NCBI RefSeq assembly: GCF_000708675.1 | Contig: NZ_JELR01000002.1 | Span: 124,001 to 188,000, forward strand | Direction: 5' to 3' | DNA length: 64,000 nt | DNA from: Microbulbifer sp. HZ11 | GTDB lineage: Bacteria > Pseudomonadota > Gammaproteobacteria > Pseudomonadales > Cellvibrionaceae | Shown here: in pieces, positions 13,173 to 42,226 of the stretch | How positions within the stretch are numbered: position 1 is the stretch's first letter | Layout of the letters: each line of letters opens with the position of its first letter | The notes under the pieces: generated by a model | Seen by the model: the letters and a program-made list of their open reading frames with translations, nothing else | Told to the model about the DNA's origin: nothing | The model's database searches: none | Position numbers and translations under genes: made by a program

Positions 13173-13300
13173 GCGGTGGCGGTACTGCCAGCAGGTACCG
13201 CCTACTGAGACACGCCGTGCACCCATCCCTGGGGGCTCTGTACCGCCATCCATGGCGGCGAAGGTCTCAGAAGGCGGTACCTTGCTAGCAGTGCCTTCGC
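13173..13300 (+). repeat. Variable-stem hairpin repeat, copy A
   Basis: Lies in the 328 bp gap between dacA and ybeD, which I find otherwise empty. Outer arms 13181-13211 and 13264-13295 pair over ~30 bp with few mismatches (inner part GGTACCGCCTACTGAGAC against GTCTCAGAAGGCGGTACC). Between them lie the conserved ACGCCGTGCACCCATCC and TGGGGGCTCT blocks, then a small inner hairpin with the loop CATCCATG. GGTGGCGGTACTGCC heads the element. Subtype without the AGCTAGGCG insert, like copy C. Confidence 0.85.
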
Positions 13301-13335
13301 ATCTGGTTTTGTCCGTTCTTGAGTTTTGGACTCAC

Positions 13336-14484
13336 TTACTGGAAGAACCCCATCACAAAGCGCTTGATGGAATCCCAAAGGCGCTTGAAGAAGCCGGCCT
13401 CTTCCACATCCTCGGCTACCACCGCCGCTACGTCGGCAACAGTCTCGCCGTCCAGATTCACCACGACTTTACCCACCTGCTGGCCTTTGGCCAGTGGGGC
13501 TTTGAGCTCGCCGTCAATGATCAGGTCGGCTTTGATGCTCTCTTCACCGCCGCGGGGGATGGTGACGAAAACATCGCGGGAGACGGCGACGCCGACGGTG
13601 TCGGCTTTACCGCCCCATACGCGTTCGGTCTGCAAGACGTCGTTGCTGCCATACACCTTGTGGGTCTGGAAGTAACGGAATCCATAGGCAAGCAGCTTCT
13701 GGGTTTCCGCAGCGCGCTTTTCGTCACTGTCGGTGCCGACGACAACGGAGATGAGGCGCATACCCCGCTTGACCGCGGAGGCTACCAGGCAGTACCCCGC
13801 TTCCTCAGTGTGACCGGTCTTGATGCCGTCAACAGCGGGATCACGCCATAACAGGCGGTTGCGATTGGGCTGGTTGATGCCGTTGAAACGGAAGTATTTT
13901 TCCGAGTACAGCGCGTAATGGCTGGGATGATCCTGAATCAACGCGCGCGCCAGTTTGCTGAGGTCACGAGCGGTGGTGAGGTGCCCTTCCGCGGGCCAGC
14001 CGGTGGCGTTGACGAAGTGGGTGTCGTCCATACCGAGCAGTTGCGCCTGCTGGTTCATGACTTCCGCGAAAACTTCCTCACTTCCGGAGACGTATTCCGC
14101 GAGAGCGATGCTGGCGTCGTTGCCGGACTGGACGATAACGCCGCGCAACAGGTCAATGACCGGCACTTTGTCGCCAACCTTGACGAACATTTTCGAGCCA
14201 CCCTTGCGCCAGGCCTTCTCAGAGATATTGACTGAGTCCTGCTCTTTGATGGTGCCCTTTTCCAGCTCTTCAGAAACGATGTAGCTGGTCATCATCTTGG
14301 TGAGGCTGGCCGGGGGAATCTGTTTATCGGCGTCGTGTTCCACCAGTACCTGACCGGTGTGGGCATCTACCAGGATGTAAGCGGTAGCCGCAAGTTGCGG
14401 GGGCGCGGGAATCAGGGGTTTATCGGCCTGGGCCACGCTGGCGCTGACGATCAGGAGCAGACAGGCAAATAAGCGTTTGAACAT
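13336..14484 (-). CDS. dacA: D-alanyl-D-alanine carboxypeptidase (PBP5/6 family)
   Basis: Removes the terminal D-Ala from peptidoglycan pentapeptides in the periplasm. 382 residues from the ATG at 14484 (GAGAG upstream). Signal peptide LFACLLLIVSASVAQA, catalytic S60-x-x-K63 (PPASLTKMM), S120-G-N (VQSGNDAS), K222-T-G (GIKTGHTEEAG), a PBP5 C-terminal beta domain and a C-terminal amphipathic helix (FKRLWDSIKRFVMGFF) that anchors it to the inner membrane. Part of the conserved mrd/rlpA/dacA/lip cluster. Confidence 0.97.
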   Translation of the reverse strand: MFKRLFACLLLIVSASVAQADKPLIPAPPQLAATAYILVDAHTGQVLVEHDADKQIPPASLTKMMTSYIVSEELEKGTIKEQDSVNISEKAWRKGGSKMFVKVGDKVPVIDLLRGVIVQSGNDASIALAEYVSGSEEVFAEVMNQQAQLLGMDDTHFVNATGWPAEGHLTTARDLSKLARALIQDHPSHYALYSEKYFRFNGINQPNRNRLLWRDPAVDGIKTGHTEEAGYCLVASAVKRGMRLISVVVGTDSDEKRAAETQKLLAYGFRYFQTHKVYGSNDVLQTERVWGGKADTVGVAVSRDVFVTIPRGGEESIKADLIIDGELKAPLAKGQQVGKVVVNLDGETVADVAAVVAEDVEEAGFFKRLWDSIKRFVMGFFQ

Positions 14485-14565
14485 GGGTCTCTCTTTATTC
14501 CTTGCAATCAATGTGTGTCAGATCCCCGGCGCCTGCCAGGGAAAAAGACGGTGCGAGTATAAGGG

Positions 14566-15468
14566 TTAATCCACCACTACCTGAGGTTGACCGAAGTTTT
14601 TCTGTTCAACGGATTCCCTCAAGGCAGCCAGTGCCCGCTGCTGTTCAATAGGCCCAATCCGGACCCTGTACAGCATTTTCCCGCCGCGATTTACCGGACT
14701 AACGGATACAGGATAGCCGAATGCGGCGGCGAGCTGCGCACGAATCTCTTCTGCCTGACTGGATGAGCTATAGGCACCTACCTGCAGGTAGGTATTATCG
14801 GGGAGTTTGAAGCTGGCATCCTGCGGAAGCCCTTTGCGTGCTGCGGCATCTTTTTCCACAGCAAGGGTTTCGATGGCACTGGGCAGACTTTCTGGGTCGA
14901 GCGCCTCTACCTCGACGCGCGCTACCCCCTTGTCGATATAACCGAGCTTCTGCGCAGCGGTGTAGCTGAGATCGATAATACGCCCGGGGACGAAGGGACC
15001 GCGGTCGTTTACCCGCACGATGATACTGCGGCCGTTATCCAGGTTGGTGACCTTTGCGTAACTTGGCAATGGCAGGGTTTTGTGGGCGGCAGACATGGCG
15101 TACATGTTGTACACCTCACCATTTGCGGTCTTGCGTCCGTGAAACTTGGTACCGTACCAAGAGGCGTGGCCCCGTTCACGATACCCTTTTACATCCTCAC
15201 GCACCCGATACTTGACGCCATTCACAACATATGGGGATTTGTTACCAGCGACACCTATTGGCTCACGCACCGGCGTTACCTCCGGAGTCGCCAGCATGTC
15301 TACCGGGACAGCCGGACCGCTGTCGCGGATCTGATCGAAAGGCACATCATCCGGCTCCACCTTGGCACGGCCACTATCGTTCAGTGGCACGGTGCTACAG
15401 GCCGACAGCAATAACAGCGCACAGGCGCCGCCTATTCGGGCGGAAAACCCGAGTCGTGGTTTTATCAT
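14566..15468 (-). CDS. rlpA: RlpA lipoprotein, septal lytic transglycosylase
   Basis: About 300 residues. The lipobox LLLLSAC gives an outer-membrane lipoprotein. A double-psi beta-barrel domain follows (GHASWYGTKFHGRKTANGE ... VRVNDRGPFVPGRIIDLS) with the conserved H and D used by RlpA to cleave glycan strands lacking stem peptides, then a C-terminal SPOR domain (YLQVGAYSSSSQAEEIRAQL) that binds denuded septal glycan. ATG at 15468 follows GGGGGAAG. The neighbours mltB and dacA work on the same wall material. Confidence 0.95.
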   Translation of the reverse strand: MIKPRLGFSARIGGACALLLLSACSTVPLNDSGRAKVEPDDVPFDQIRDSGPAVPVDMLATPEVTPVREPIGVAGNKSPYVVNGVKYRVREDVKGYRERGHASWYGTKFHGRKTANGEVYNMYAMSAAHKTLPLPSYAKVTNLDNGRSIIVRVNDRGPFVPGRIIDLSYTAAQKLGYIDKGVARVEVEALDPESLPSAIETLAVEKDAAARKGLPQDASFKLPDNTYLQVGAYSSSSQAEEIRAQLAAAFGYPVSVSPVNRGGKMLYRVRIGPIEQQRALAALRESVEQKNFGQPQVVVD

Positions 15469-15561
15469 GACTTCCCCCTGGTGCCGGGCAGACGCCGCCC
15501 GCAACCGTGTGTTATCGCTCTAATTCGTTATGTTTTCACTTTGTCTGGAGCTCGCGGCGGT

Positions 15562-16572
15562 TCAGGACCGGCCGCCACGGGCTTTTATGATTTCCTGCCC
15601 CAGCTCGTAAACCGCCATGGCGTAGAGGCGGCTGTGGTTGTACCGGGTGATGGTGTAGAAATTATTCAGCCCGATCCAGAACTGCTCGCCGTCTTCGGTT
15701 TTCAATGAAAACACATTGGCCGGCATATCTTTGGTCACCTGTGCCGTGGTTGGGAAGCCTTTGGCCTCAACCTCACCCACCGTCCAGTTGGGCTTGAGAT
15801 CATCGTTGACGATGGTCATATCCGCATTGGGTAACGGCTGGGTAATTACGGTGACCGGCTCACCGGTCTTCCAGCCATGCTCCACAAAATAGTTGGCCAC
15901 ACTGCCAATGGCATCTTCGGTATCTTCCCAGATATCCACTCGGCCATCGCCATTAAAGTCCACCGCGTAGTGGCGATAACTGGACGGCATAAACTGGCCG
16001 AACCCCATGGCACCGGCGTAAGATCCCTTGAGGCTGGTGGGATCGATTTTTTCATCCCGGGTCAGCAACAGATAATTTTCCAGTTCTTTGGTGAAAAACT
16101 TGGAGCGACGGGGATAGTTGAACGAGAGCGTGGAAAGCGCATCAATTACCCGGTAGCTTCCCATATTGCCACCGTAGCGGGTTTCAACTCCAATGATCGC
16201 CACAATCAGCTCCGGTGGCACCCCGTACTTTTCTTCAGCGGCCTTGAGCGCCTCGGCATTTTTATCCCAGAAGTCCACTCCGCCGCGAATACGGGAGTCG
16301 GTAATGAAGATTTTGCGGTATTCGTACCAAGGCTTGGCTTTTTCCGCCGGGCGCTTGATGGCTTTGAGAATGGACTCCTTACGCTTGGCTTCCCGCATCA
16401 GCCCCTGAAGTTCATCGCGGCTGAAATTGTGCTCGGCCACCATGTAATCCACAAAGGCCTTGGCCTGGGCATTTTCATCGTGCCCCTGCTCCTGGGCACA
16501 GGCGCCAAGCACCAGCCCCAAGCCGGCCAACAATCCCGTGGTCCACTTCAAAACAACCGCTCCTGTCTTCAT
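15562..16572 (-). CDS. mltB: Membrane-bound lytic murein transglycosylase B
   Basis: 336 residues from the ATG at 16572 (GGAAG 6 bases upstream). Lipobox LGAC with C25. GH103-type catalytic glutamate E130 in AIIGVETRYGGNMGSYR, then GSYAGAMGFGQFMPSSY and a calcium-loop-like DFNGDGRVDIWE. Cleaves peptidoglycan glycan strands with formation of 1,6-anhydroMurNAc, at the inner face of the outer membrane. Part of the wall cluster between rodA and rlpA. Confidence 0.95.
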   Translation of the reverse strand: MKTGAVVLKWTTGLLAGLGLVLGACAQEQGHDENAQAKAFVDYMVAEHNFSRDELQGLMREAKRKESILKAIKRPAEKAKPWYEYRKIFITDSRIRGGVDFWDKNAEALKAAEEKYGVPPELIVAIIGVETRYGGNMGSYRVIDALSTLSFNYPRRSKFFTKELENYLLLTRDEKIDPTSLKGSYAGAMGFGQFMPSSYRHYAVDFNGDGRVDIWEDTEDAIGSVANYFVEHGWKTGEPVTVITQPLPNADMTIVNDDLKPNWTVGEVEAKGFPTTAQVTKDMPANVFSLKTEDGEQFWIGLNNFYTITRYNHSRLYAMAVYELGQEIIKARGGRS

Positions 16573-16764
16573 AAAGTACTTCCAACTACTTTTCACTTAT
16601 CGATGTTTGCTGTTCAGTCGCGCCCGCTGGCCAACCGGTGACCGGTGCGTTTGGCTATTGTGACTACAACCGCGCCAAAAAGTGGCACGATACACCCGAA
16701 AAAGTGAAGGCAGCCTGAACCGGCTCACGTTCTTGCGTTCGCGATGGAATTCCAGCCTGCATCG

Positions 16765-17910
16765 TCAGAAAAGTACTCTGCGCCTTTCCGTGCTGACGGC
16801 CATGAGAATACCGAACCCCGCCATCAGGGTAATCACCGATGTGCCACCGTGGCTGACTAGCGGCAGAGGTACCCCTACCACTGGCAATAGACCGGTCACC
16901 ATTCCGATATTCACGAACACGTACACGAAGAAGGTCAGCGTGATACTGCCCGCCAATAACCGACCGAATACGTGCTGGGCCATAAAACTAATATAGATGC
17001 CCCGAGCGATGATCAACAGGTACAGGGCCAACAGGATCAGTGCACCCCGCATTCCCCACTCTTCTGCCAGTACCGCGATGATGAAATCCGTGTGACTTTC
17101 TGGCAGGAAATCCAGCTGCGACTGGGTGCCCTGCATAAAGCCCTTGCCAGACCACCCCCCGGAGCCGATAGCGGCCTTGGACTGGAAAATATTCCAGCCG
17201 GCGCCCAACCGATCTGCATCCGGATTGAACAGGGTGAGAATCCGCTGTCTCTGGTAATCCCGAAGTCCCCACATCCACATGGGCCAGGCCGCCATCAGTC
17301 CCATGACGATGGCACTGCCGATCATCTTCCAGCTGAGACCAGACAGATACAGGGCGAAAATGCCGGAGGCGGCGATCAGAATGGAGGTGCCCAGATCCGG
17401 CTGACGCACGATCAGTACCGCCGGCACCGCGATAATCACCAGCGCGCCCAGTACCGTCAGCAACGACGGTGGCAATGTGCGTTTGTGCAAATAGGCCGCC
17501 ACAGCAATGGGCACCGCCAGTTTGAGGGCTTCAGATGGCTGGAAGCGAAACCCACCCACTTGCAGCCAGCGCTGGGCCCCCTTGGCACCGACACCCACAA
17601 ACAGTACCGCCACCAACAGGCAGCAGCCGGCCAGATAAAACCAGGGGGACCAGCGGCGATAAAATTCCAGAGGAATCTGCGCCGCAATGAGCATGCCGAT
17701 AAACGCCAGCCCCATAAACACAGCCTGGCGTTTCACGTAATGGAATTCCTCGCCGGCTGCACTGTAGAGCACCACCAGCCCAACACCCGCCAGTGCCAAC
17801 AACAACAGCAGTAGCGGCAAGTCGATATGCCAGCGGCGGGAAAAGCTTTCCGGGCGGCGCAGACTACTGCCGGTATCCGGCAGCCGGTTCATATAATCGC
17901 GGCTCGCCAC
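16765..17910 (-). CDS. rodA: RodA peptidoglycan glycosyltransferase (SEDS family)
   Basis: 381 residues, ~10 membrane helices, forming the lateral-wall polymerase with PBP2. SEDS signature regions are visible: GAKGAQRWLQVGGFRFQPSE, RQPDLGTSILI and the C-terminal GLLPVVGVPLPLVSHGGTS. Starts at GTG 17910, immediately after the mrdA TAA (TAAGTG), with GGAGG 8 bases upstream inside mrdA, so it is coupled to PBP2 synthesis. An ATG six codons later is an alternative. Confidence 0.96.
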   Translation of the reverse strand: MASRDYMNRLPDTGSSLRRPESFSRRWHIDLPLLLLLLALAGVGLVVLYSAAGEEFHYVKRQAVFMGLAFIGMLIAAQIPLEFYRRWSPWFYLAGCCLLVAVLFVGVGAKGAQRWLQVGGFRFQPSEALKLAVPIAVAAYLHKRTLPPSLLTVLGALVIIAVPAVLIVRQPDLGTSILIAASGIFALYLSGLSWKMIGSAIVMGLMAAWPMWMWGLRDYQRQRILTLFNPDADRLGAGWNIFQSKAAIGSGGWSGKGFMQGTQSQLDFLPESHTDFIIAVLAEEWGMRGALILLALYLLIIARGIYISFMAQHVFGRLLAGSITLTFFVYVFVNIGMVTGLLPVVGVPLPLVSHGGTSVITLMAGFGILMAVSTERRRVLF

Positions 17911-19824
17911 TTACCCCGCCTCCCTGTGTCCGTTTAAGGCGGACGGCGACATTGGCGGCCGCCAGCCTGTGCCCATAGCGGTATCCTCATAGGTCCGCGA
18001 CATCCAGTCAAAGAACACTTCCCGGGCCACCGGTGCAGCGACTCTGCCTCCACCCTCGCCGTTTTCCACCAGGACCGACACCGCAATCTGCGGGTCGTCC
18101 ACCGGCGCGAAGGCCACAAACAATGCGTGGTCCCGATGGCGCTCTTTGAGCGCTTCGGAGTCGTATTTCTCCCCCTGGGCGATACCGACGACCTGAGCAG
18201 TACCGGACTTGCCCGCCACCTTGAAGTCGAGGCCGGCACCGGCGCGCTTACCGGTGCCATGGGTGCTGTAGACCACCGCCTCCATACCTTCGAACACCAG
18301 ATCCCAGTGTTCCGGGCGAGCGTCCACGTGGTGCAGTATCTCCGGTGGCTGTTCGATCCCATCCACCGCCATTACTACCTGCGGCCGATAGTGCGTACCG
18401 CGATTGGCGATGGTGGCGGTCATCACCGCAAGCTGCAGAGGCGTCGCCAGCACAAAGCCCTGCCCCAGCACCGCATTCAGGCTATCGCCGGGAAACCAGG
18501 GCACGCCGCGCGCGCCGCGCTTCCAGTCCCGTGAGGGGAACAGCCCCGGATATTCCCGGGGCAGGTCAATGCCGGTCTTCTCGCCGAGACCGAAACGGGT
18601 GGCGATATCGTACATGCCGTCAATGCCCCAGCGATGCGCCATGTCCCAGAAGTACACATCACAACTCTGCGCCAGGCCCTGGATCAGATCCACGTGCTTG
18701 CCGTGGCCCCAGCGCTTCCAGTCGCGATAGATACGAGAATCGTTGGGTAACTTGAAAAAACCCGGGTCCGCCACCTTGGTCTCAGCGGTGATGACCCCCG
18801 CGGCGAGCCCACCCAGCCCCATCATCGGCTTAAGGGTTGAGCCCGGCGGATATTGCCCCTGCACCACGCGATTGAACAACGGCACGTCCAGGGAATCCCG
18901 CAGCGCACTGTAGTCCTTGAAACTGATGCCGGTCACAAACAGATTGGGGTCGAAGGATGGCTGGCTGACAAAGGCAAGTACACCACCGGTTTTCACATCG
19001 ATGGCCACAACCGCGCCGCGGCTATCTCCCAGCGCCTCGGTCGCCACCTGTTGCAGACGGGTATCCAGGTGCAGGGTCAGCTCCGCGCCGGGTTTGGGGT
19101 CCTGGCGTTCCAACACCCGCAGAACCCGGCCACGGGCATTGGTCTCGACGTTTTCATAGCCGACTTCACCTAGAAGCAAGTCCTCGTAGGAACGCTCCAA
19201 TCCCACTTTGCCGATACTCTGGGTGCCCCGGTAGCGGCTCACGTCTTCCTCGGAAAAGCTCGATAGCTCACGCTCATTGATCCGCCCCACATACCCGACA
19301 CTGTGGGCGAACAGTTCCCTCTCCGGGTAGTAGCGGACCAGCTCCGCCTCTACAGACACCCCGAGCAGATGAAACTCATTGACGCTGATACGGGCAATTT
19401 CCTCCTCGCTCAGGCGGTAGCGCAGGGGAACGGGCTCGAATGGACGGCGACGAGGTAGACGGCGCTTGAATTTTTCTACATCGCTATCATCCAGCTCTAC
19501 CAGCTGGCCGAGCAGCTCCAGGGTCGCGTCCAGGTCTTTGACCCGCTCACGCACGATCGACAGGGTATAACTGGGGCGGTTGTCCGCAAGCAGTTCCCCG
19601 TTGCGGTCGTAGATCAGCCCGCGGGTGGGCGGCACCGGGCGAACCTGGATACGGTTTTGGTCGGATTGGGTGCGGTAGTCTTCATAATTGACTACCTGCA
19701 GATTGTACAGACGCGCCACTAGCACACTCAGCAGCGCCACGACACCGAAGATGGCCACCAGCATACGGTTGCGGAATAGCCGCTGTTCCGAGTGGTGATC
19801 TTTAAAGTGCAGGTTTTCAGACAT
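17911..19824 (-). CDS. mrdA: Penicillin-binding protein 2 (elongation transpeptidase)
   Basis: About 637 residues. Short cytoplasmic N-terminus, one membrane anchor (MLVAIFGVVALLSVLVARLY), pedestal domain, then the transpeptidase domain with S329-x-x-K332 (PPGSTLKPM), S387-C-D (AQSCDVYFW) and K539-S-G-T (VAGKSGTAQVV). Cross-links new peptidoglycan with RodA/MreBCD during elongation. Start chosen at ATG 19824 to match the family; the ribosome site is weak and the frame stays open to 19878. Confidence 0.96.
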   Translation of the reverse strand: MSENLHFKDHHSEQRLFRNRMLVAIFGVVALLSVLVARLYNLQVVNYEDYRTQSDQNRIQVRPVPPTRGLIYDRNGELLADNRPSYTLSIVRERVKDLDATLELLGQLVELDDSDVEKFKRRLPRRRPFEPVPLRYRLSEEEIARISVNEFHLLGVSVEAELVRYYPERELFAHSVGYVGRINERELSSFSEEDVSRYRGTQSIGKVGLERSYEDLLLGEVGYENVETNARGRVLRVLERQDPKPGAELTLHLDTRLQQVATEALGDSRGAVVAIDVKTGGVLAFVSQPSFDPNLFVTGISFKDYSALRDSLDVPLFNRVVQGQYPPGSTLKPMMGLGGLAAGVITAETKVADPGFFKLPNDSRIYRDWKRWGHGKHVDLIQGLAQSCDVYFWDMAHRWGIDGMYDIATRFGLGEKTGIDLPREYPGLFPSRDWKRGARGVPWFPGDSLNAVLGQGFVLATPLQLAVMTATIANRGTHYRPQVVMAVDGIEQPPEILHHVDARPEHWDLVFEGMEAVVYSTHGTGKRAGAGLDFKVAGKSGTAQVVGIAQGEKYDSEALKERHRDHALFVAFAPVDDPQIAVSVLVENGEGGGRVAAPVAREVFFDWMSRTYEDTAMGTGWRPPMSPSALNGHREAG

Positions 19825-20031
19825 GCTGGTGAAAACAGATTCTTCGGTGGCGCGAAAATGACCACGGAGTGTACACAAGTTTGCCGCTCATGCGGAGATA
19901 ACGGCGGAGATGACGCCAAATTCGAAACAGGTCAACGGGCAAATCGGTTGAACACCGCGCCACAGAAATATGACAACCAGTGCTGGCAGCAGTTCACTCT
20001 ACCGCGACGCTGATAGGGAACTGGCTAGCCG

Positions 20032-20508
20032 TTATTTGTGGTATGGGTGCCCGGCAAGCAATGTCCAGGCCCGGTAGATCTGTTCCGCCAGCAACACCCG
20101 AACCAGAGGATGGGGCATGGTGAGCGCGGACAGGGACCACTTCTGATTGGCTCGCGCCACGCACGCCGGTGCCAGCCCGTCTGGACCGCCGATCAGCAGA
20201 CAGACGTTGTCGCCGCCCATCTGCCAGTCCGCCAGCTCTCGGGACAGCTGCTCGGTGCTCCAGGCCTTGCCCTTTACCTCCAGCGCCACCACATGCTCCC
20301 GCGGATTGATCGCCGCCAGCATCGCCTCTCCCTCTTTCTGGCGGGCCTTTTCCGCCAGTGCCGGGGAATTTTTCTGGCCGCGATTGCCGAGGGGGATTTC
20401 CACCATTTCCAGGGTCAGTTCCCGGGGCAGGCGCTTGGCGTATTCGTTGTAACCCTCCTGCACCCACCCGGGCATCTTGCCACCGGCGGCGATGATTCGA
20501 ATCTTCAT
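20032..20508 (-). CDS. rlmH: 23S rRNA pseudouridine-1915 N3-methyltransferase
   Basis: 158 residues, the usual length for this SPOUT-class enzyme. The SAM-binding trefoil shows [12 protein letters not shown], and the C-terminal [25 protein letters not shown]...GHPYHK is the conserved knot and substrate end. Modifies helix 69 of the 50S subunit. Lies 23 bp downstream of rsfS, in the order conserved across gammaproteobacteria. Confidence 0.97.
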
Positions 20509-20532
20509 AGGAAGAACAAAGACACCTGGGGC

Positions 20533-20889
20533 TTAGTGAGGGTCGGACCCGTCCGCATCCTCGCGGGTGTTCGGGGTCATGGACCAGAGTTTTTCCAGGT
20601 CATAGAAGCCGCGGGTTTCCGCCTGCATCACATGAATCACCACGTCGCCATAGTCGACAAGTACCCACTCGCCCTGCTCCATGCCTTCCACACCGATGGG
20701 GCGAATGCCCGCTTCCTTACCGTCCTCGACCACATTGTTGGCCAGGGACTTCACCTGACGGTTGGAGGTACCGGTGCAGATGATGAGCGTGTCCATCACG
20801 TCACTGAGCTCCGACACGTCCATGGATACAATGTCTTTACCCTTGAGGTCTTCCAGTGCGTTTACCGCAATTGATCTGATATCCGTCAT
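20533..20889 (-). CDS. rsfS: Ribosomal silencing factor RsfS
   Basis: 118 residues. Binds L14 (uL14) on the 50S subunit and blocks subunit joining when nutrients are short. Family motifs DTLIICTGTSNRQVKSLANNV and GEWVLVDYGDVVIHVM are clear. AGGTG lies 5 bases before the ATG. Between nadD and rlmH as usual. Confidence 0.96.
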   Translation of the reverse strand: MTDIRSIAVNALEDLKGKDIVSMDVSELSDVMDTLIICTGTSNRQVKSLANNVVEDGKEAGIRPIGVEGMEQGEWVLVDYGDVVIHVMQAETRGFYDLEKLWSMTPNTREDADGSDPH

Positions 20890-20946
20890 AACACCTGTTT
20901 CGGGAGCCTGGGCTCCGCCGTTCTAGTCTGAGATCCGAGCTCTTTC

Positions 20947-21591: not shown

Positions 21592-21604
21592 TATAGGTTC
21601 GGGT

Positions 21605-22909: not shown

Positions 22910-23067
22910 TGCTGATCTCCTTGCAAAACACGCTATCTCGCCGGGATTGTCGCCAATCCCGCGTCAAATCTCTCATCTCCCGGCATGGCCGCCGGAAAAC
23001 GGCCGCGCAGTATACCGCAACAGCGCCGGAAAATTGCCCAACGAAAGCGGTTATTGGCCAGAAATGG

Positions 23068-25728: not shown

Positions 25729-25803
25729 AGGAAAATCGGGTTTCTTTATGTTTATTTATTGTCCGCCTGCGCAACCTCATTGCGCAATGTCACCACGCGA
25801 CGG

Positions 25804-26379: not shown

Positions 26380-26531
26380 AATTTCGACTCTCTGGCTATT
26401 TTGGGGTGGCGACAAAGATACCACTCCTGTGGATGGCACAAGAATAATCTCCCCACCTCAAAACAAAAACTCGCGCCAACTGTTCTATGCTCAAATCTAT
26501 ATGCGAACGGTTATTCAGTGAGAGGTATCCC

Positions 26532-27440: not shown

Positions 27441-27479
27441 CAGTTCAGTACCTCGTAGTCCGAAAAAAACGTCGAAATC

Positions 27480-27612
27480 GAGCCCGGTGGCAGCGCCGCT
27501 ACCGGGTACTACCTTTTGAGACACGAGCTAGGCGCCCCCCTCAACCCATCCATGGGGGCTCTCCTAAAACATCCCTGTTTTAGAAGGTCTCGCGAAGCCG
27601 CACCCGGTATCG
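27480..27612 (+). repeat. Variable-stem hairpin repeat, copy B
   Basis: Lies in the 291 bp between the metallopeptidase and ppiC. Head hairpin CCCGGTGGCAGCGCCGCTACC (one unit, 27484-27503), then GAGACACGAGCTAGGCG, AACCCATCCATGGGGGCTCT, the inner hairpin CTAAAA-CATCCCTG-TTTTAG (27564-27583) and the closing GAAGGTCTC. Outer pairs are ACCGGGT/ACCCGGT and GAGAC/GTCTC with ~10 unpaired bases between. Confidence 0.85.
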
Positions 27613-27731
27613 ACACTTTCGCTTCGGCGTTTGAGTCCTTATAAGGCTGTGTATGCTGGCTCCTTAGTTCGTTACACACTAAGCTTGCCGCTCACGAAAT
27701 TATTCATTACCAAACTATTAGGGAGATTCCC

Positions 27732-28013: not shown

Positions 28014-28019
28014 TATCGC

Positions 28020-28057
28020 GATTCAGGCATCACGTAAGAAATACTGAAGCCTGAATC
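28020..28057. terminator. Hairpin after ppiC
   Basis: GATTCAGGC (28020-28028) pairs perfectly with GCCTGAATC (28049-28057), 7 bases after the ppiC stop. There is no T run, so it may be a weak terminator or an mRNA 3' stabiliser. Confidence 0.45.
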
Positions 28058-28060
28058 GAA

Positions 28061-28220
28061 GGTGCCGATGTCGGGGGCAGTCTTACGAGACCTTCAAAAA
28101 CAGGGCCGAAGGCGCCGTGAATACATGGAGCGGCTGGGTACTTTTTGCAGAGCCCCCAGGGATGGGTTCACGGCGTGTCTCGTAAGACTGCCCCCGACAG
28201 CGGAACCGCCACGGTGCCAG
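28061..28220 (-). repeat. Variable-stem hairpin repeat, copy C (reverse orientation)
   Basis: Perfect 23 bp outer arms: 28069-28091 against 28177-28199 (TGTCGGGGGCAG and TCTTACGAGAC parts). In the minus sense the loop reads ACGCCGTGAACCCATCC, TGGGGGCTCT, then a GCAAAAA/TTTTTG inner stem whose loop holds ~37 extra bases, and the closing GAAGGTCTC. Same subtype as copy A. It fills the gap between ppiC and the convergent membrane-protein gene. Confidence 0.85.
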
Positions 28221-28257
28221 ATACGAAGCGCCCGTGAACCACAAGACTACGAACACA

Positions 28258-29097: not shown

Positions 29098-29248
29098 TGG
29101 CGACGCACCTCGATCACGTAATTATTGTTTTATTCTGCCCAGCCCTAACCGAGAACCAACGGCCAGTAATCCACGGCAAGATACGTAAATATCGAATAAT
29201 TGTTCGGTTTATGCAACCATCCGTATGCAGATTGACCAACAGACAGAT

Positions 29249-33346: not shown

Positions 33347-33400
33347 CAGCCGGCCTCCCCCACAGGGGTGACACGCGCGAAAGCCGTCACAGTCGGGCGG

Positions 33401-34888
33401 TTACACCAGAACAATGTCGTACTGCTCCTGGTTGTAGATGGGTTCCACCTGAAACTGGATGGGGCGCGCGATAAATTCTTCCAGGTCCGCCACATTTGCG
33501 GACTCTTCATCCAGCAGTAAATCGATCACCACCTGGCTGGCCAGGACCATGATTTTGTCGCTGTCATAGGCTCGCGCCTCGCGAATGATCTCGCGAAAGA
33601 TTTCGTAGCAGACGGTTTCTGCCGTTTTCAGTGTGCCGCGGCCGGCACAGACGGAGCACGGCTCACAAAGCATCTGACCGAGAGATTCGCGAGTACGCTT
33701 ACGGGTCATCTCCACCAGGCCCAGTTCGGACACGCCGGTAATGCTGCTCTTGGCGTGATCCCGCTCCAGCGCTTTTTCCAGGGTGCGCAGGACCTGACGC
33801 TGGTGCTCGGTGTCCTGCATATCGATAAAGTCGATGATGATGATGCCACCCAGGTTGCGCAGGCGTAGTTGGCGGGCAATGGCAGTGGCCGCTTCCAGGT
33901 TGGTCTTGAAAATGGTCTCTTCGAGATTGCGATGGCCGACAAACGCACCGGTGTTCACATCGATGGTACTCATGGCCTCGGTCTGCTCGACGATCAGGTA
34001 GCCGCCGGATTTCAGGGTCACCTTGTTCTGTAGTGCCTTGCGGATTTCTTCTTCAACACCGTACAAATCAAACAGCGGGCGCTCACCGGGATAGTGCTCG
34101 ATACGCGGGGCAATTTCCGGCGCGTACTTGCTGGTGAACTTGGCCGCGCGGGCGTGTGCCTCGCGGGAATCGATACGGATCTTTTCCGTATGCGGCCGCG
34201 CCAGATCCCGCAGGGCGCGCATAAACAGCGGCAGGTCTTCGTAGATGATGGCCGGCTCTTTCTCCGACTTGATCCGCTGCTCCAGCTCTTTCCACAGTTT
34301 GTAAAGAAACGGGATATCCCGCAGTAACTCTTCCTCGCTGACACCTTCGGCCACGGTGCGTAGGATAAAACCACCATCGCCGCTCAATCCTTCATCGGCG
34401 AGTTTGGTCGAGGCAAGATCCACCAGCTCGCGCAGGCGCTCGCGCTCAGATTCGTCCTCGATGCGGTTGGAAATACCGATATGACGGGTCTGGGGCATAT
34501 ACACCAGGTAGCGTGCGGATACGGACAGATGCGTGGTGAGACGCGCGCCCTTGCTGGAGATGGGGTCTTTGACCACCTGCACCACCAGCGACTGCCCCTC
34601 CCGCACCAGAGCGCGAATATCGGCAACTTCGCCTTCGCGGGATTCCATGCCTTCATCGTCCAGGGGCGCGATATCCGATGCGTGGATAAACCCCGCCCGT
34701 TCCAGACCAATATCCACAAACGCAGCCTGCATCCCCGGCAGCACCCGTACAACTTTTCCTTTATAGATATTGCCGACGATGCCACGGCTGGCGGTTCGCT
34801 CCAGATACACTTCCTGCAGCACACCGTTTTCCACCAGCGCCACGCGGGTTTCCATGGGCGCCACGTTGATGAGTAATTCTTCGCTCAC
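33401..34888 (-). CDS. rng: Ribonuclease G
   Basis: 495 residues. S1 domain near the N-terminus (GNIYKGKVVRVLPGMQAAFVD), then the RNase E/G catalytic core with the magnesium aspartates in STIDVNTGAFVG and GGIIIIDFIDM and the zinc-link CEPCSVCAGRG. Matures 16S rRNA 5' ends and degrades mRNA. Lacks the long C-terminal scaffold of RNase E. GTG start with AGGAG 9 bases upstream. 11 bp after maf. Confidence 0.96.
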   Translation of the reverse strand: MSEELLINVAPMETRVALVENGVLQEVYLERTASRGIVGNIYKGKVVRVLPGMQAAFVDIGLERAGFIHASDIAPLDDEGMESREGEVADIRALVREGQSLVVQVVKDPISSKGARLTTHLSVSARYLVYMPQTRHIGISNRIEDESERERLRELVDLASTKLADEGLSGDGGFILRTVAEGVSEEELLRDIPFLYKLWKELEQRIKSEKEPAIIYEDLPLFMRALRDLARPHTEKIRIDSREAHARAAKFTSKYAPEIAPRIEHYPGERPLFDLYGVEEEIRKALQNKVTLKSGGYLIVEQTEAMSTIDVNTGAFVGHRNLEETIFKTNLEAATAIARQLRLRNLGGIIIIDFIDMQDTEHQRQVLRTLEKALERDHAKSSITGVSELGLVEMTRKRTRESLGQMLCEPCSVCAGRGTLKTAETVCYEIFREIIREARAYDSDKIMVLASQVVIDLLLDEESANVADLEEFIARPIQFQVEPIYNQEQYDIVLV

Positions 34889-34899
34889 GGGCGTAACTC

Positions 34900-35559
34900 C
34901 TAAATCGTCCCTGCATCCGCCCCAGAAGAGCGCTTGTCAAATTGCCAGTAGGGAATACCCGCTCGCTGCAGAAACCCGGCCAGGGTTTCCAGCGGCAGCC
35001 CCACTACGTTGCTGTAACTACCATGGATGGATTCCACTAACAGCGCCCCCATACCCTGGATACCGTAGCCACCGGCCTTGTCCTGGGGTTCACCGGTATT
35101 CCAGTAACCCTCAATCAGCGCTCGGTCCAGCGGGCGAAAACGCACCCGGGTTTCGACAACGTCACAAAATGACTGCTCCGTGCCAGTCAGGCTGATGGCG
35201 GTCAACACGGTATGCTCGCGCCCGGACATCAGCCGCATCATGCGCGCAAAATCGGTGAAATCACGGGGTTTCTCCAGGATCTCATCGTCTACCAGACCCA
35301 GCGTATCCGCCCCCAATGACCAGGCTGTCGCATCGTTATGGGCCAGTGCGAGGCCCGCACGGGATTTTTCCTGAGCGAGCCGCAGCACGTATTCACGCCC
35401 GGATTCACCGGGTTGGCGAATCTCTTCAACTGAGGTCGCTGCGGAGGAAAAGGGAACACCGATCTGCATCAGCAGCTCTGCACGCCGGGGGGACCCGGAG
35501 GCGAGAATGAGGCGCGAGGAAGGACTGGCTTGTCGGGAGTCTGATCGTGGCACGGGCAA
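34900..35559 (-). CDS. maf: Maf-like nucleoside triphosphate pyrophosphatase (YhdE type)
   Basis: 219 residues. [21 protein letters not shown], the [22 protein letters not shown] region, GADTLGLVD and the C-terminal [18 protein letters not shown] are the Maf signatures; such enzymes hydrolyse dTTP/UTP or modified nucleotides. The start is not clear: TTG at 35559 and GTG at 35553 both precede the conserved ASGSPRR by ~18-20 residues, and neither has a strong ribosome site. Conserved position between mreD and rng. Confidence 0.93.
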
Positions 35560-35724
35560 CGCTTATGATTATGTGTTTGCTGGCAGAAGGCCTGATTATA
35601 GCGGCCACGCTCGAAAAATAACCGGCCTGCGCGGACACTTAACACTATTTTTCAATTGTTCTTCTCGACTCCGGCAACGCCACAAATAAGACAACCGTCT
35701 ATTTAAGGACCCTACCACTTGCCA

Positions 35725-36204
35725 CTACCGGATTCGCAGACTGGTAGCCATACGGTGCAGCCAGGGAGTCACCAGCGGCCACAGCAATGCGGTAGTCAGC
35801 GCTGGCCACAGAAATGTCAGCCCGGGCACCGTCTTTCCCGCCAGACTGTGCACCCAATTGCCGAGGAGCTGATTGATCCCCACCAGCACAAATACCCACA
35901 TCAACTGCTGCCCGGGATTGAACGCCCGTGTGCGCCGATAAGTCAGCAGACTGAAATAAGCCAGTACCGCCAACGCCAGTGCGTGGGCGCCAAGGGTAGA
36001 ACCGGTGACCAGGTCTTCCGCCAGCCCGGCGATCCAGGCAAACCCCACTCCCAGCTCCTGGGGCATACGGGTGGTCCAGAAGATCACCAGCAGTGCACAG
36101 AAGGCGGGGCGAAACCACAACCAGTTTGCGGGCAGAGGCATCACCGCCAGCAGCAGGGCGACGACAAAGGTGAACAGGATAAACCAGCGATTGTGGGCAT
36201 CCAT
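35725..36204 (-). CDS. mreD: Rod shape-determining protein MreD
   Basis: 159 residues, five or so membrane helices (WFILFTFVVALLLAVMPLP, LVIFWTTRMPQELGVGFAWIAGL, LALAVLAYFSLLTYR). The inner-membrane partner of MreC in the elongasome. Four bases after the mreC stop. Small, divergent protein whose identity is secured by the mreB-mreC-mreD order. Confidence 0.93.
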   Translation of the reverse strand: MDAHNRWFILFTFVVALLLAVMPLPANWLWFRPAFCALLVIFWTTRMPQELGVGFAWIAGLAEDLVTGSTLGAHALALAVLAYFSLLTYRRTRAFNPGQQLMWVFVLVGINQLLGNWVHSLAGKTVPGLTFLWPALTTALLWPLVTPWLHRMATSLRIR

Positions 36205-36208
36205 GAGA

Positions 36209-37048
36209 TCAGTTCTGCCCGTCTGTCAACGTCTCGCTGAGCACCGCAAGCACGAAGCGACTGCGATTCATCAGACCGCGAGGCTGCACATCCACATCGG
36301 CAAACGCCCTCCCCGGGTCGCGCTTGACGGAGATCACCTCGCCCACCGGATATCCTGCGGGGAAGCGGCCACCAAGACCGGAACTCAGCAGCAGATCACC
36401 TTCGCGGATATCACTGGTATTCGCCAGATGACGCAGTTTGAGACGGTACAGGTCACCGGTGCCCTCGGCCACCGCACGCACACTGTTACGCAGCACCTGC
36501 ACCGGCAGAGCGTGGTTGGCGTCGGTAATCAGCAGTACCCGACTGGAAAAGTCTCCCGCTTCAATCACCTGCCCCAGCAGGCCACTGGCATCCATGATCG
36601 CGGTACCCTGCCGCACACCGTCACTGCGCCCCTTGTCGATAATCAGTACGTGCTCCAGGGGATCCGGAGAAACGCCGATCACCTGAGCCACCAGTACTCG
36701 CTCGTCCACGCTTTCCGCAGAGTTCATCAACTCTTTCAGCTGGGTATTTTCTGCGCGCACTGCGGCCAGCAGCTGAGCCTGCTGTTCCAGCAGCATCACC
36801 TGGTGCTTGAGGCGACTGTTTTCCTCCACCAGCTCTTCGCGGGTACGCAGCTGCTCACCGGCCCAGTCACCCACACGGGACGGGGTTCCGGTAATCCAGT
36901 AGAAAGGTGCAGCGAGACTGGAGAGGCGCTCGCGTACCGGGTCAAGCCAGTCGGTGTAAAGGTTGACCAGAATCAGCGCCGTCGCCAATGCCCCCAGCAC
37001 GATGATGCGGGACTCCGGCGACGGTCCTCGGGTAAATAGCGGTTTAAT
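36209..37048 (-). CDS. mreC: Rod shape-determining protein MreC (start unusual)
   Basis: Bitopic periplasmic scaffold of the elongasome: membrane helix (IIVLGALATALILVNLY), coiled coil (TREELVEENSRLKHQVMLLEQ as helix ~70-110), then the beta domain with SSRVLLITDANHALPVQVLR and SSGLGGRFPAGYPVGEV. Homology to other MreC proteins begins at IKPLFTRGPSPESR, upstream of the first possible GTG (37000). In that stretch no ATG, GTG or TTG is in frame; only ATT at 37048 aligns with the usual MKPLF start. An ATG at 37061 would join in frame if a run of five G (37055-37059) had one base fewer. So this is either a rare ATT start or a frameshift at the homopolymer. Confidence 0.88.
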   Translation of the reverse strand: MKPLFTRGPSPESRIIVLGALATALILVNLYTDWLDPVRERLSSLAAPFYWITGTPSRVGDWAGEQLRTREELVEENSRLKHQVMLLEQQAQLLAAVRAENTQLKELMNSAESVDERVLVAQVIGVSPDPLEHVLIIDKGRSDGVRQGTAIMDASGLLGQVIEAGDFSSRVLLITDANHALPVQVLRNSVRAVAEGTGDLYRLKLRHLANTSDIREGDLLLSSGLGGRFPAGYPVGEVISVKRDPGRAFADVDVQPRGLMNRSRFVLAVLSETLTDGQN

Positions 37049-37167
37049 GGGCGGCCCCCATTGACCAGTTCAGCAATGATGTTGTTATTGGCTGTGGCGC
37101 GATTCCGTGCGCGGGTGCAGCGGCGGCGCCCTATCCATGAGCACCACCATCAATCAGGCAGGCGTTA

Positions 37168-38569
<1,402 letters not shown>

Positions 38570-38857
38570 ATGGCCGTGGACGCGCAAACCGTTGAAAAGC
38601 TGGCCGAACTGGCCCGCATCGCCATTTCCGAAGAAACCATAGACGAAGTCAGCAGCCGCCTGGGCGATGTACTGCAACTGGTGGACCAGTTGCAGGCCGT
38701 CAATACCGACGGCGTCGCGCCTATGGCGCACCCCCTGGACGAAGTGCAGGTACTGCGCAAAGACGAAGTAACCGAGCCCAACCGTCGCGAAGACTTCCTC
38801 GCCCTGGCCCCACAGACAGAGGCGGGCCTGTATCTGGTGCCCAAGGTCATCGACTAA
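38570..38857 (+). CDS. gatC: Asp/Glu-tRNA amidotransferase subunit C
   Basis: 95 residues. Wraps around GatA/GatB and stabilises the amidotransferase that converts Glu-tRNA(Gln) or Asp-tRNA(Asn) to the amide form. Typical VEKLAELARIAISEE start, MAHPLDEVQVLRKDEV and the C-terminal LYLVPKVID. Opens the gatCAB operon. Confidence 0.96.
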   Translation: MAVDAQTVEKLAELARIAISEETIDEVSSRLGDVLQLVDQLQAVNTDGVAPMAHPLDEVQVLRKDEVTEPNRREDFLALAPQTEAGLYLVPKVID

Positions 38858-38923
38858 GAGGCCATTGATTATCGCATCACCAGTCCCGAGCGAATACAGA
38901 ATAGACAAGAAACCGGATTTCCA

Positions 38924-40378
38924 ATGCATCAGTTGACCATCGCCGAGATCATTCGCGGCCTGCGCGACAAACAGTTCTCCAGCGTCGAGATCACCAGCCA
39001 TCTGCTGGAGCGTATCCAGGAGCTGGACAACCAGTTCAACAGCTTCATTACCGTCACCGGCGACCAGGCGATCAAAGAAGCCGCCGCCGCCGACGCCCGC
39101 CTGGCCCAGGGCGACGCCCCGGCCCTGTGCGGCGTACCCATCGCCCACAAGGACATCTTCTGTACCAATGGCGTGCGCACCAGCTGCGGCTCGAAGATGC
39201 TCGACAACTTCGTGCCCCCCTACGACGCCACCGTTGTGGATAACTTCCAGCAGGCCGGCGCGGTCAGCCTGGGTAAAACCAATATGGACGAGTTCGCCAT
39301 GGGCTCCTCCAACGAATCCAGCTTCTACGGCGCGGTAAAAAACCCGTGGAATGTGGAGCGCATTCCCGGTGGTTCCTCCGGTGGTTCCGCCGCCGCGGTG
39401 GCCGCGCTGTTGGTACCCGGCACCACCGCCACCGACACCGGCGGCTCCATCCGCCAGCCCGCGGCCATGACCGGCACCACAGGCCTCAAACCCACCTACG
39501 GCCGCGTATCCCGCTGGGGCATGATTGCCTTCGCCTCCAGCCTCGACCAGGGCGGCCCCATTACCCGCACCGCGGAAGACGCCGCGCTGATGCTGTCGGT
39601 GATGGCAAGCCCAGACAAGAAAGATTCCACCTGCCTGGACCGCCCGACCCAGGACTACACCGCCAATCTGAACGACTCCATCAAGGGACTGAAGATCGGC
39701 GTGCCCAGCGAGTACTTCGGTGAAGGCCTGGATAGCGAAGTGGGTGCGCGTGTGCAGGAAGCACTGAAAGACTACGAAAAACTCGGCGCGGAACTGGTGG
39801 AAATCAGCCTGCCCCACAGCAAACTGGCGGTGCCAGCCTACTACGTGATCGCCCCGGCGGAAGCCTCCGCCAACCTGTCCCGCTTCGACGGCGTTCGCTA
39901 CGGCTACCGCTGTGAAAATCCGGCGGACCTGCGCGACCTGTATATGCGCTCTCGCGGCGAAGGTTTCGGTGAGGAAGTGAAGCGCCGCATCTTGGTGGGC
40001 AGCTACGCCCTGTCTGCCGGTTACTACGACGCCTACTACAACAAGGCCCAGCAGGTGCGCCGCCTGATCAAACAGGATTTTGTCGACGCCTTCGACAAGG
40101 TCGACGTCATTATGGGCCCCACCGCCCCCAACCCGGCGTTCAAGCTGGGCGAGAAAAATGCCGATCCGGTGGCCATGTATCTGGAAGACATTTACACCAT
40201 CGCCACCAACCTGGCCGGCCTGCCCGGCATGTCCATCCCCTGCGGTTTTGCCCACGGCCTGCCCGTCGGCCTGCAGATCATTGGCAACTATCTGGATGAA
40301 GCGCGCATGCTCAACGTCGCGCACCAGTTCCAGCAAGCCAGTGACTGGCACCAGAAAACCGCCCCGGCAGCAGAATAA
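38924..40378 (+). CDS. gatA: Asp/Glu-tRNA amidotransferase subunit A
   Basis: 484 residues, amidase-signature enzyme that releases ammonia from glutamine. The Ser-cisSer-Lys triad is visible as K76 (PIAHKD), S151 (GGSSGGSAA) and S175 ([10 protein letters not shown]). 66 bp after gatC and 11 bp before gatB. Full length and intact. Confidence 0.98.
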
Positions 40379-40389
40379 GGAGACGAGAC

Positions 40390-41841
40390 GTGGAATGGGA
40401 AGTCGTCATCGGGTTGGAAGTGCATGTGCAACTGGCCACCCAATCAAAAATTTTCTCCGGAGCCAGCACCGCCTTTGGTGCGGAGCCGAACACCCAGGCC
40501 TGCGCGGTCGACTTGGCCATGCCGGGCACCCTGCCGGTACCCAATGAAGAGGCTTTCCGCTTTGCGGTAATGTTCGGCCTCGCCATGAATGCGGAAATTG
40601 GCAAGCGCTCGGTATTCGAGCGCAAAAACTATTTCTACCCGGACCTGCCCAAGGGCTACCAGACCACCCAGTTGGAACAACCGATCGTCGGCGCCGGCCA
40701 GATCGAAATTCACCTGGAAGATGGCAGCAGCAAGACTGTGCGTTTGCACCACGCGCACCTGGAAGAGGATGCGGGCAAATCTTTACACGAAGACTTCCAC
40801 GGCATGTCCGGCATCGACCTCAACCGCGCCGGTACGCCGCTAATCGAAATCGTATCCGAACCTGATATGCGCAGCGCTGCGGAAGCGGTTGCCTACCTGA
40901 AAAAGATCCACAGCATCGTCACCTACCTGGGTATTTCCGACGGTGATATGTCTCAGGGCTCCCTGCGCTGTGACGCCAACGTTTCCGTGCGTTTGAAAGG
41001 CGAAGAGGAACTGGGTACCCGCACCGAGATCAAGAACCTGAACTCCTTCCGCTTTATCGAGAAGGCGATCAAGGTGGAAGCCCAGCGCCAGATCGATCTG
41101 ATCGAGGACGGTGGTAAGGTGACGCAGGAAACCCGCCTGTACGATGCGGACAAGAACGAAACCCGCTCCATGCGCAGCAAGGAAGTGGCCAACGACTACC
41201 GCTACTTCCCCTGCCCGGACCTGCTGCCGGTGGTTCTGACCGACGATTACGTGGAGCAGATTCGCAGCGAGCTGCCGGAGCTACCGGATGCGAAGTGTGC
41301 GCGTTTCGAGAAGGACTACGGCCTGTCTGCCTACGATGCGGATCAGCTGACCCAGGAGCGCGCCACTGCAGATTACTTTGAGCAGGTGGCAGCCAAGTCT
41401 GGCGAGCCTAAACTGGCAGCTAACTGGGTGATGGGTGAACTGGCGGCGCTGTTGAACCGCGAGGAAAAATCTATCGCCGATTCTCCGGTTTCTGCGGAGC
41501 ACCTGGCGGGCCTGATCGCGCGCATCAAGGACAACACCATTTCCTCAAAGATCGCCAAGCAGGTGTTTGAGGCGATGGCGAATGGTGACGGTGATGCGGA
41601 CACAGTCATCGAGGCCAAGGGCCTGAAGCAGGTTTCTGACACGGGTGCCATTGAGAAGATGGTGGACGATGTAATCGCGGCCTCTACTTCTCAAGTAGAA
41701 AACTACCGCAATGCCGACCCGGACAAGCGCCCGAAAATGATGGGCTTCTTTGTTGGCCAGATCATGAAGGCTTCCAAGGGGCAGGCGAATCCGCAGATGA
41801 TCAACAAGATTCTGAAAGAGAAACTGGACGCACTGCTGTAG
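40390..41841 (+). CDS. gatB: Asp/Glu-tRNA amidotransferase subunit B
   Basis: 483 residues. Kinase-like domain that phosphorylates the tRNA-bound Glu/Asp ([43 protein letters not shown]) and a C-terminal YqeY-like tRNA-binding domain ([19 protein letters not shown]). GTG start with AAGGAG 7 bases upstream. Ends the gatCAB operon. Confidence 0.98.
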
Positions 41842-41893
41842 AAGTCTTGCATGTCGGGTTCTTCTAGCTCAGAGGTCCCTACTAGCAACCTTC

Positions 41894-42020
41894 AGTGGCG
41901 GTCGTGCACCGGGTGAAGCTTTTCGAAACCGAACTAGGCGTCCCCCTGGGAATACGTCCCTGTACGCTGCGTCGCAAACGTCCCTGTTTGCGACGCTTTC
42001 GAAAAGCTTCACCCGGCACC
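41894..42020 (+). repeat. Variable-stem hairpin repeat, copy D
   Basis: First of two copies in the 455 bp gap after gatB. Perfect 19 bp outer arms 41910-41928 and 41997-42015 (CGGGTGAAGCTTTTCGAAA). Loop: ACCGAACTAGGCGTCCCCCT, a mini-hairpin TACGTCCCTGTA, and a perfect 10 bp inner stem GCGTCGCAAA/TTTGCGACGC around CGTCCCTG (41969-41996). The most divergent loop of the five copies. Confidence 0.85.
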
Positions 42021-42096
42021 CAACCTTAAATTTCGACAAATGTACTTCGTATCAACTCGGCGAGCTAACCAAGCACTCTAAAAATTGATGCGAAGG

Positions 42097-42226
42097 CGAT
42101 GTCGCCGGGATTTGTTTGCGAAACCTTCCGCGAGAGGGACCTCGCGGAAGAGCCCCCATGGATGGGTTAACGGGGGGCGCCTAGCTCGTGTTTCGCAAAC
42201 AAATACCGGCGGCAGCGCCGCCACCA
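42097..42226 (-). repeat. Variable-stem hairpin repeat, copy E (reverse orientation)
   Basis: Perfect 15 bp outer arms 42110-42124 and 42190-42204 (ATTTGTTTGCGAAAC) and a perfect 10 bp inner stem CTTCCGCGAG/CTCGCGGAAG (42125-42150). In the minus sense the loop reads ACACGAGCTAGGCGCCCCCC, then AACCCATCCATGGGGGCTCT, as in copy B. A GGCGGCAGCGCCGCC head lies at 42209-42222. The ~75 bp between copies D and E holds nothing recognisable. Confidence 0.85.

Follow-up and report, generated by a model that had tools for sequence, protein, structure and literature searches.

A widespread family of dispersed, folded elements in gammaproteobacteria, with paired hairpins that resemble CsrA/RsmA sites

A 64,000-nucleotide stretch of the Microbulbifer sp. 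HZ11 genome (contig NZ_JELR01000002.1, positions 124,001 to 188,000; hereafter ‘the window’) holds five copies, A to E, of an element of about 140 bases, whose closing stem differs from copy to copy yet pairs. Five copies had been reported from the sequence alone (the original prediction), and a covariance model places all five at about the same positions: 13172–13309 (+), 27483–27631 (+), 28047–28216 (−), 41891–42039 (+), and 42081–42228 (−), in the sense of the strand on which the prediction read them (‘the reader strand’). Their presence is thus confirmed, with a correction of orientation: A, B, and D share one strand, and C and E are on the opposite (minus) one. The five stretches are best read as copies of a dispersed structured-RNA element, within an explanation to which we assign a probability of about 0.5, namely that the element is a dispersed, partly mobile structured RNA bearing a pair of CsrA-type hairpins. 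The family itself is real, widespread, and apparently unnamed.

On the reader strand, the element begins with GTGGCGG and a variable arm ending in GAGAC. The junction, which is ACGCCGTGAA or a longer ACGAGCTAGGCGCCCCCC module, leads to two hairpins, each built around RTCCNT and separated by GGCTC, and these are followed in turn by A(A/C)GGTC, the complementary arm, and CCTTCGC; the combinations of loop modules vary between copies. Copy D has other loop blocks (AACCG ... GCTGCGTCGC ... GCGACGC) and belongs to a sister subtype, also represented elsewhere, marked by AACCG and GCGTCGC...GCGACGC. A further form of the element is found at L037:98–234. Extra hairpins, different in each copy, are nested in the tips of the inner hairpins of copy C (28047–28216) and of copies in relatives (genomes G055 and G001; loci L061 and L073).

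Taking the model together with predicted folds, and giving in brackets the strand that we propose to be the RNA strand, copy A occupies 13173..13307 (−; model match and fold of the RNA strand), copy B 27480..27620 (−; model, comparison with relatives, and fold), copy C 28047..28216 (+; model, stem finder, comparison with relatives, and fold), copy D 41888..42039 (−; model and fold), and copy E 42081..42228 (+; model, fold, and stem finder). In a stem search limited to 22 bp, the outer stem pairs at 18/19 positions in A, 22/22 in C, and 21/22 in E; copy D was overlooked by the core pattern of the stem script and has a 19-bp run in its fold. The middle arms of copy B are mismatched. In a relative (G021), the copy that occupies this site has nearly matching arms (one A-C), so that copy B looks like a recombinant. 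Copies D and E form an inverted doublet 42 bp apart. Among 44 listed copies (48 rows, less four that are other palindromes or chance), 33 have an outer stem of 20–22 bp free of mismatches, G-T being counted as a pair.

With the D and E stretch as query, 53 matches were obtained in the own genome (G000). A covariance model, R1, built on an alignment of 32 copies (A1), yielded 143 matches there at E-values up to 0.01, from which four reverse-strand duplicates and the four weakest matches (E above 1e-5) were removed. The genome therefore holds at least 135 copies, five of them in the window, where no further model match is listed; this number is a lower bound because 150 of 1589 first-look candidates were scored. 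Outside this genome, R1 finds matches in 72 of the order's 194 sampled genomes, representing 39 of 96 genera (17 candidates scored per genome), and a strict core pattern is found in 11 of 38 close genomes, own included, with no match for its reversed control. Matches in other genera retain the junction and usually both loops, whereas the stem differs. A pattern scan of GTDB genomes retrieved at least 117 stretches, those listed including Xanthomonas, Stenotrophomonas, Lysobacter, Marinobacter, and Rheinheimera, and also Alteromonas, Methylotuvimicrobium, Sodalis, and Halopseudomonas.

Several known identities were considered and set aside. A phage origin was rejected, the viral contig collection containing no exact match to the core pattern, as was membership of an Rfam family, none reaching its gathering score in the window. 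In a 521-base stretch containing D and E, the sole match at E-values up to 5 was Ysr224, whose 18.5 bits fall short of its gathering score (70) and which was taken as chance. Six 16-letter core strings had no occurrence in the 5.39 million papers searched, and word searches, with most subscription literature outside their scope, listed no paper that describes the family as judged by title and abstract start.

The original prediction held that the fold, rather than the stem sequence, is kept, and the data bear this out: outside the last 4 nt the arms are on average only 31% identical (106 multi-genus elements), so that the conserved 20–40-bp stem of REP/BIME repeats is absent, yet pairing and covariation are strong. 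In A1, RNAalifold predicts 34 pairs, 28 of them with at least one two-sided change. A larger alignment of copies from the related genomes G008 and G039 (A3; 110 rows, 107 after overlaps were dropped, covariation being counted on all 109 distinct rows and 42 pairs) has standard pairs in 93.6% of paired cells, compared with 67.7% in shuffled alignments and 37–45% when partners are slid. Its covariation score of 0.629 (shuffled, 0.170; slid, at most 0.116) is reached by none of 500 shuffles, and two-sided compensated change is seen in 1167 cells (shuffled, 333 ± 22; partner columns slid, 120–214) and in 38 of the 42 pairs. The exception among the five measures is the number of further pair types, which does not rise above the shuffles (100 versus 97.7; 141 of 500 shuffles as high). 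Although A3 was fitted to the model, which favours structure, two model-free stem finders agree. The prediction would have fallen with few further copies in the genome or with no significant covariation, and neither outcome arose.

The age of stem changes is informative as well. Between G008 and G039, the numbers of one-sided and compensated stem changes are 15 and 2 at the 22 near-identical sites, 18 and 28 at intermediate sites, and 22 and 83 at far sites; young changes that are one-sided and old ones that are compensated are the course expected if selection restores pairing. Pairing might instead be automatic and the fold unselected, if template switching or gene conversion copies one arm of a palindrome onto the other. 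Such copying would fit the Watson–Crick pairs in 2049 of 2109 core cells, the varying combinations of loop modules, and the replaced arm of copy B. It does not fit the one-sidedness of fresh changes, nor the directional excess of A-C over G-T mismatches described below, which arm copying should not yield, and we rejected it as the main cause, regarding it as very improbable.

Regarding the strand, the original prediction probably had it reversed. An A-C mismatch on one strand is a G-U pair on the other, and stem mismatches on the reader strand are mostly A-C: the A-C to G-T ratio is 45:3 in G000 (30 elements), 63:2 in G008 (35 elements), 65:3 in G039 (34 elements), and 152:32 in the multi-genus set (108 distinct elements at 117 loci; p = 7e-20). 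These counts come from a stem finder that rewards Watson–Crick pairs only, after exclusion of elements whose stem scored below 14 or whose arm was a repeat of another, and the p-values are rough, copies in one genome and orthologs being non-independent. The mismatches are spread along the whole stem, with at least one A-C in 74/108 elements and at least one G-T in 23/108. Within the genus the A-C excess is partly inherited (a fixed A-C in the sister subtype), and core pairs away from that position still give 39:7. The complementary strand is therefore probably the one whose folding matters, as RNA or single-stranded DNA. The loop motif picks the same strand as the wobble direction, and these are two independent features; we hold with considerable confidence that the fold of the complementary strand is what is maintained.

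On this proposed RNA strand, both hairpin loops are as a rule ANGGAN, closed by C-G. The motif CANGGANG occurs there at least once in 160 of 165 elements (30/32, 104/107, and 26/26 in the three sets) and twice in 76, compared with 1/165 on the reader strand. When the RNA strand is folded in silico, 84 of 107 elements show GGA in two of their hairpin loops, 22 in one, and 1 in none, whereas reader-strand folds do so in 0/107. The search patterns for the multi-genus set fixed the first hairpin only; the second hairpin, which lay outside them, has ANGGA or AGGA in 101 of 108 elements, 81 of these as CANGGANG. In the 100 elements with two or more A(N)GGA motifs (7/107 have fewer than two), the gap from the first to the last interior motif is 20–21 nt in 61, 36–37 nt in 34, and another length in 5.

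For CsrA/RsmA, PMC7652899 gives RUACARGGAUGU as the consensus from systematic evolution of ligands by exponential enrichment (SELEX), an ANGGAN hexaloop in RsmE structures, and bridging of sites 10–63 nt apart with an optimum over 18 nt, and PMC6849547 gives the consensus A/U-CANGGANG-U/A. Judged by sequence, the loop motif and the spacing of the element match these published sites, and the predicted folds have A(N)GGA hairpin loops at dimer-bridging distance, as in Csr/Rsm-binding RNAs. That the loops serve CsrA/RsmA, and that CsrA would bind them, we consider an evenly balanced proposition.

The mechanism that we propose is the following. The functional molecule would be the strand complementary to the reader strand, with a long closing stem of about 25–35 bp, free in sequence and constrained in pairing, that ends in a junction bearing two short hairpins. 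Their C-G-closed ANGGAN loops, about 20 nt apart, would form a paired docking site for a CsrA/RsmA dimer, insulated and stabilised by the long stem. Copies, gained and lost over time, would be transcribed by read-through from neighbouring genes, and, once transcribed, may hold CsrA on the host transcript, with possible effects on the genes concerned, or jointly act as a distributed sponge. Since neighbouring copies are arranged as inverted doublets, transcription from either direction would include one RNA-sense copy. A more far-reaching version, which we put forward tentatively and think rather doubtful, is that a mobile, high-copy RNA family constitutes a genome-wide CsrA/RsmA sponge or landing grid in many gammaproteobacteria. 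In hosts without a recognised CsrB/RsmZ small RNA, the CsrA set point would then be held by more than a hundred interchangeable hairpins with two sites each, carried on ordinary transcripts.

Known Csr/Rsm-sequestering small RNAs are few genes with many motifs each. The element shares with CsrB/C and RsmX/Y/Z the ANGGAN motifs in hairpin loops of one RNA and the CsrA-dimer spacing, but has about two motifs per copy, more than 100 dispersed copies, a long variable closing stem, no terminator consensus in its flank profiles, and no Rfam match in the window; by sequence, it is not a member of the CsrB or RsmZ families of Rfam. The genome G000 has one CsrA match and, with these narrow models and among the candidates scored, no match to either the CsrB or the RsmZ model. 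Over 19 genomes, the CsrB model matched none, and the RsmZ model none above and two below its cut-off, neither being G000, which may have an unrecognised Rsm RNA. CsrA is encoded in 71 of the 72 element-bearing genomes; the remaining one (G230) is an assembly of 590 contigs with 88% completeness. Elsewhere, CsrA-family matches number 19 in G010, 9 in G006, and 11 in G114, the first two belonging to the genus of the window.

Xanthomonas RsmU (PMC7694677) is a GGA-bearing RNA that derives from the 3′ end of an mRNA and is bound by RsmA both in vitro and in vivo; it is a single locus with a terminator, unlike the dispersed element. It was rejected as a family member, R1 giving no match at E-values up to 0.01 in four Xanthomonas ComEA-type loci (L284–L287). 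One of these, L287, has several GGA motifs and a terminator-like end downstream of the ComEA-type gene; it probably corresponds to the published RsmU and by the model is a non-member.

Several observations weigh against a CsrA-docking RNA. With respect to the loops, each window copy has, in its predicted fold, one fully unpaired GGA and a second that is partly paired: GGA is unpaired at 13249–13251 in A, 27572–27574 in B, 41981–41983 in D, and 42137–42139 in E, while the other GGA has its last base paired in A (13226–13228), two bases paired in B (27549–27551) and D (41957–41959), and its first base paired in E (42160–42162). Copy C has an extra insert in its second inner hairpin and therefore a sole unpaired ANGGA loop, with GGA at 28160–28162. 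The second hairpin lacks A(N)GGA in 7/108 elements (six with GGA only, one with none). Very stable hairpins may disfavour CsrA binding (PMC7652899), and many second hairpins of the family have long stems. Moreover, RsmU with all four predicted GGA motifs changed was still bound by RsmA (PMC7694677), so GGA loops alone do not settle binding. Nor does the presence of CsrA say much, the protein being nearly universal (182/194 genomes, including 111/122 element-free ones; p = 0.03).

Other points concern strand, transcription, and constraint. Set A2, which is small and was chosen by reader-strand model scores, shows no comparable mismatch direction (9 A-C versus 15 G-T); G-U makes up 5–6% of stem cells on the RNA strand; and G-T wobble is tolerated in single-stranded DNA too. 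A cis-acting mRNA element should show a strand bias relative to genes. We found none in the multi-genus set (RNA-sense in 23 of 54 codirectional gaps, reader-sense in 31; p = 0.34) and a non-significant RNA-sense excess in G008, G039, and the window (49/83; p = 0.12), and gene-strand bias was accordingly dropped as proof of such an element. Flank profiles covering 90 nt to each side of 55 G008 copies reveal, by eye, no promoter- or terminator-like consensus; the only semi-conserved stretch (TAC.AAG...AAGTT.GA.GCGAA, RNA strand) is short and not promoter-like by eye. Finally, at 26 near-identical sites the elements are only mildly more conserved than their flanks (3.2% versus 4.3% and 5.9%).

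Gene context was taken from simple open reading frame calls, with 25 of 135 multi-genus elements left out at locus edges; 14/135 multi-genus elements, and 10/112 in G008, G039, and the window, lie inside a predicted frame. The multi-genus set is enriched between convergent genes (40/110 versus 91/453 background gaps; p = 6e-4), and elements are scarce in divergent gaps in G008, G039, and the window (5/111 versus 36/252; p = 0.006), the corresponding multi-genus deficit being non-significant (16/110 versus 96/453; p = 0.14). Both departures would suit a structured RNA of another kind, such as a 3′-end stabiliser, a processing or termination element, or a dock for another protein, with GGA loops that are not for CsrA. 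Against this stand the CANGGANG consensus in the loops, usually of both hairpins and at dimer-bridging distance, and the flank profiles, in which no T-run consensus follows the stem; we consider this alternative unlikely.

In G000, 13 of 14 pairs of close neighbours are inverted doublets in one arrangement; in G008, 7/10 have the same arrangement and 3/10 the reverse one. The G008 contig starts at dnaA (match at 109–591 of contig 1), and its 73 listed copies cluster around the origin (mean direction 3.997 Mb of 4.256 Mb; R = 0.51); these position and doublet counts use 73 of 77 matches, reverse-strand duplicates and one unlisted row having been left out. The listed elements strongly favour the origin-proximal half of the chromosome, and the region between about 1.5 and 2.5 Mb has almost none.

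Turnover of copies was followed at two scales. The ppiC region (window 27.7–28.0 kb) was compared across 16 relatives, and, by inspection of sequence and fold, the gap downstream of ppiC contains an element in 12 of the 15 relatives in which both flanks were found. The arms mostly differ, although G055 has its arms in common with G000 and G042 shares the outermost part. Two relatives have a short hairpin only and one a truncated copy. Short hairpins in place of the full element are seen after ppiC at L068 (G048) and L075 (G015) and also at L240:3644–3718; they are probably centre-deleted remnants. We had considered those of G048 and G015 as pre-insertion targets and rejected this, aligned G008 and G039 sites (sites 1 and 3) making centre deletion likelier. 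A further subtype follows ppiC at L059, L069, L071, and L073, with AAGGTGCTGGTGCGAGTATTTCGAA-type arms that are nearly identical across the four relatives, unlike most of the family.

At the genome scale, G008 and G039 are 88.8–97.4% identical over long blocks, and the 44 G008 copies with syntenic flanks each face a G039 element, two doublets facing a single copy; for another 11, out of 55 G008 copies in all, the stretches compared contained no syntenic flank, and, as these stretches were chosen for holding elements, shared occupancy is biased upward. Forty of the 44 face a copy in the same orientation, 22 of these being near-identical, 8 intermediate, and 10 far in arm identity, and 4 face only an opposite one. 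Far pairs may reflect replacement by another copy rather than descent in place. At one G039 copy (L259:11107), the corresponding site in G008 has no intact copy. Of three aligned sites, 1 and 3 look like centre deletions and 2 like the gain or loss of a second copy; no target duplication was seen at any of the three. Beyond chromosomes, a Xanthomonas copy was matched over 57 nt by two of 72,556 plasmid records. One of the two, the conjugative plasmid pDCA of Ancylobacter, an alphaproteobacterium, bears an element that is complete by its fold (L279:1482–1577), with a gene for a haloalkane dehalogenase on one side and one for an ISAs1 transposase on the other.

The suggestion in the original prediction of a mobile or copied element is upheld in part, copies being swapped, lost, or present or absent at the same sites and a complete one being found on a plasmid, while a linked recombinase was not established. 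These facts nourish the main rival explanation: a mobile DNA element whose folded single strand is what an enzyme recognises, as with REP/RAYT elements and integron attC sites, with the complementary strand as the one recognised, the loops as enzyme contacts, and a free stem. Besides replacement, loss, and gain-or-loss, the pDCA copy, and the four opposite-orientation pairs, the inverted doublets (13/14), the absence of gene-strand bias, and the tolerance of G-T in single-stranded DNA all agree with it. So does, weakly, the association with Y1 transposases, matched in 123/194 genomes (55 of 72 with elements, 68 of 122 without; odds ratio 2.6, p = 0.005). However, 17 of the 72 element-bearing genomes lack a Y1 match, including G086, G123, and G225 with 16–17 scored copies, and dependence on Y1/RAYT appears unlikely; no linked enzyme was found in a search for Y1 transposases only (tyrosine recombinases, also named in the prediction, were not searched). 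The lack of target duplication at the three sites and of regional strand bias in 200-kb bins of G000 also speaks against it, and both loops matching an RNA-binding consensus would be a coincidence. We regard it as possible and, on the whole, rather improbable.

The original prediction contrasted the element with REPs; this holds for the stems, which are not conserved, but not for the close neighbours, which form inverted doublets as REPs do. REP/BIME repeats with RAYT share the intergenic location, high copy number, and palindromic nature, whereas the element is about 140 bp long and multi-branched, conserves loops rather than stems, and appears not to require a Y1 transposase. MITEs and other small bacterial interspersed repeats are likewise dispersed, mostly non-coding, and folded; the element differs in having no conserved terminal repeat beyond short edges, no target duplication at the three sites, and no related transposon identified in the search limited to Y1.

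Should the CsrA-docking RNA be correct, a large class of apparently unnamed gammaproteobacterial intergenic repeats would be tied to one of the best-studied post-transcriptional regulators, CsrA titration would have an uncounted component, and antagonism of CsrA/RsmA in hosts without recognised CsrB/RsmZ RNAs would become testable. For Xanthomonas, how RsmA is antagonised was stated as unknown in 2014 (PMC3937308), and RsmU was reported in 2020 as one RsmA-binding RNA (PMC7694677). Even without CsrA as the partner, a family that spans at least 39 genera, with stems free in sequence, fixed loops, and a clear preference for one strand, is a well-defined RNA or single-stranded DNA ligand. In the window itself, a second palindromic repeat family, short, REP-like, of GGTGGATGCGCTTCGCTTATYCACCCTAC type, and unrelated to the five elements, is present at 4231–4355 and 43473–43594.

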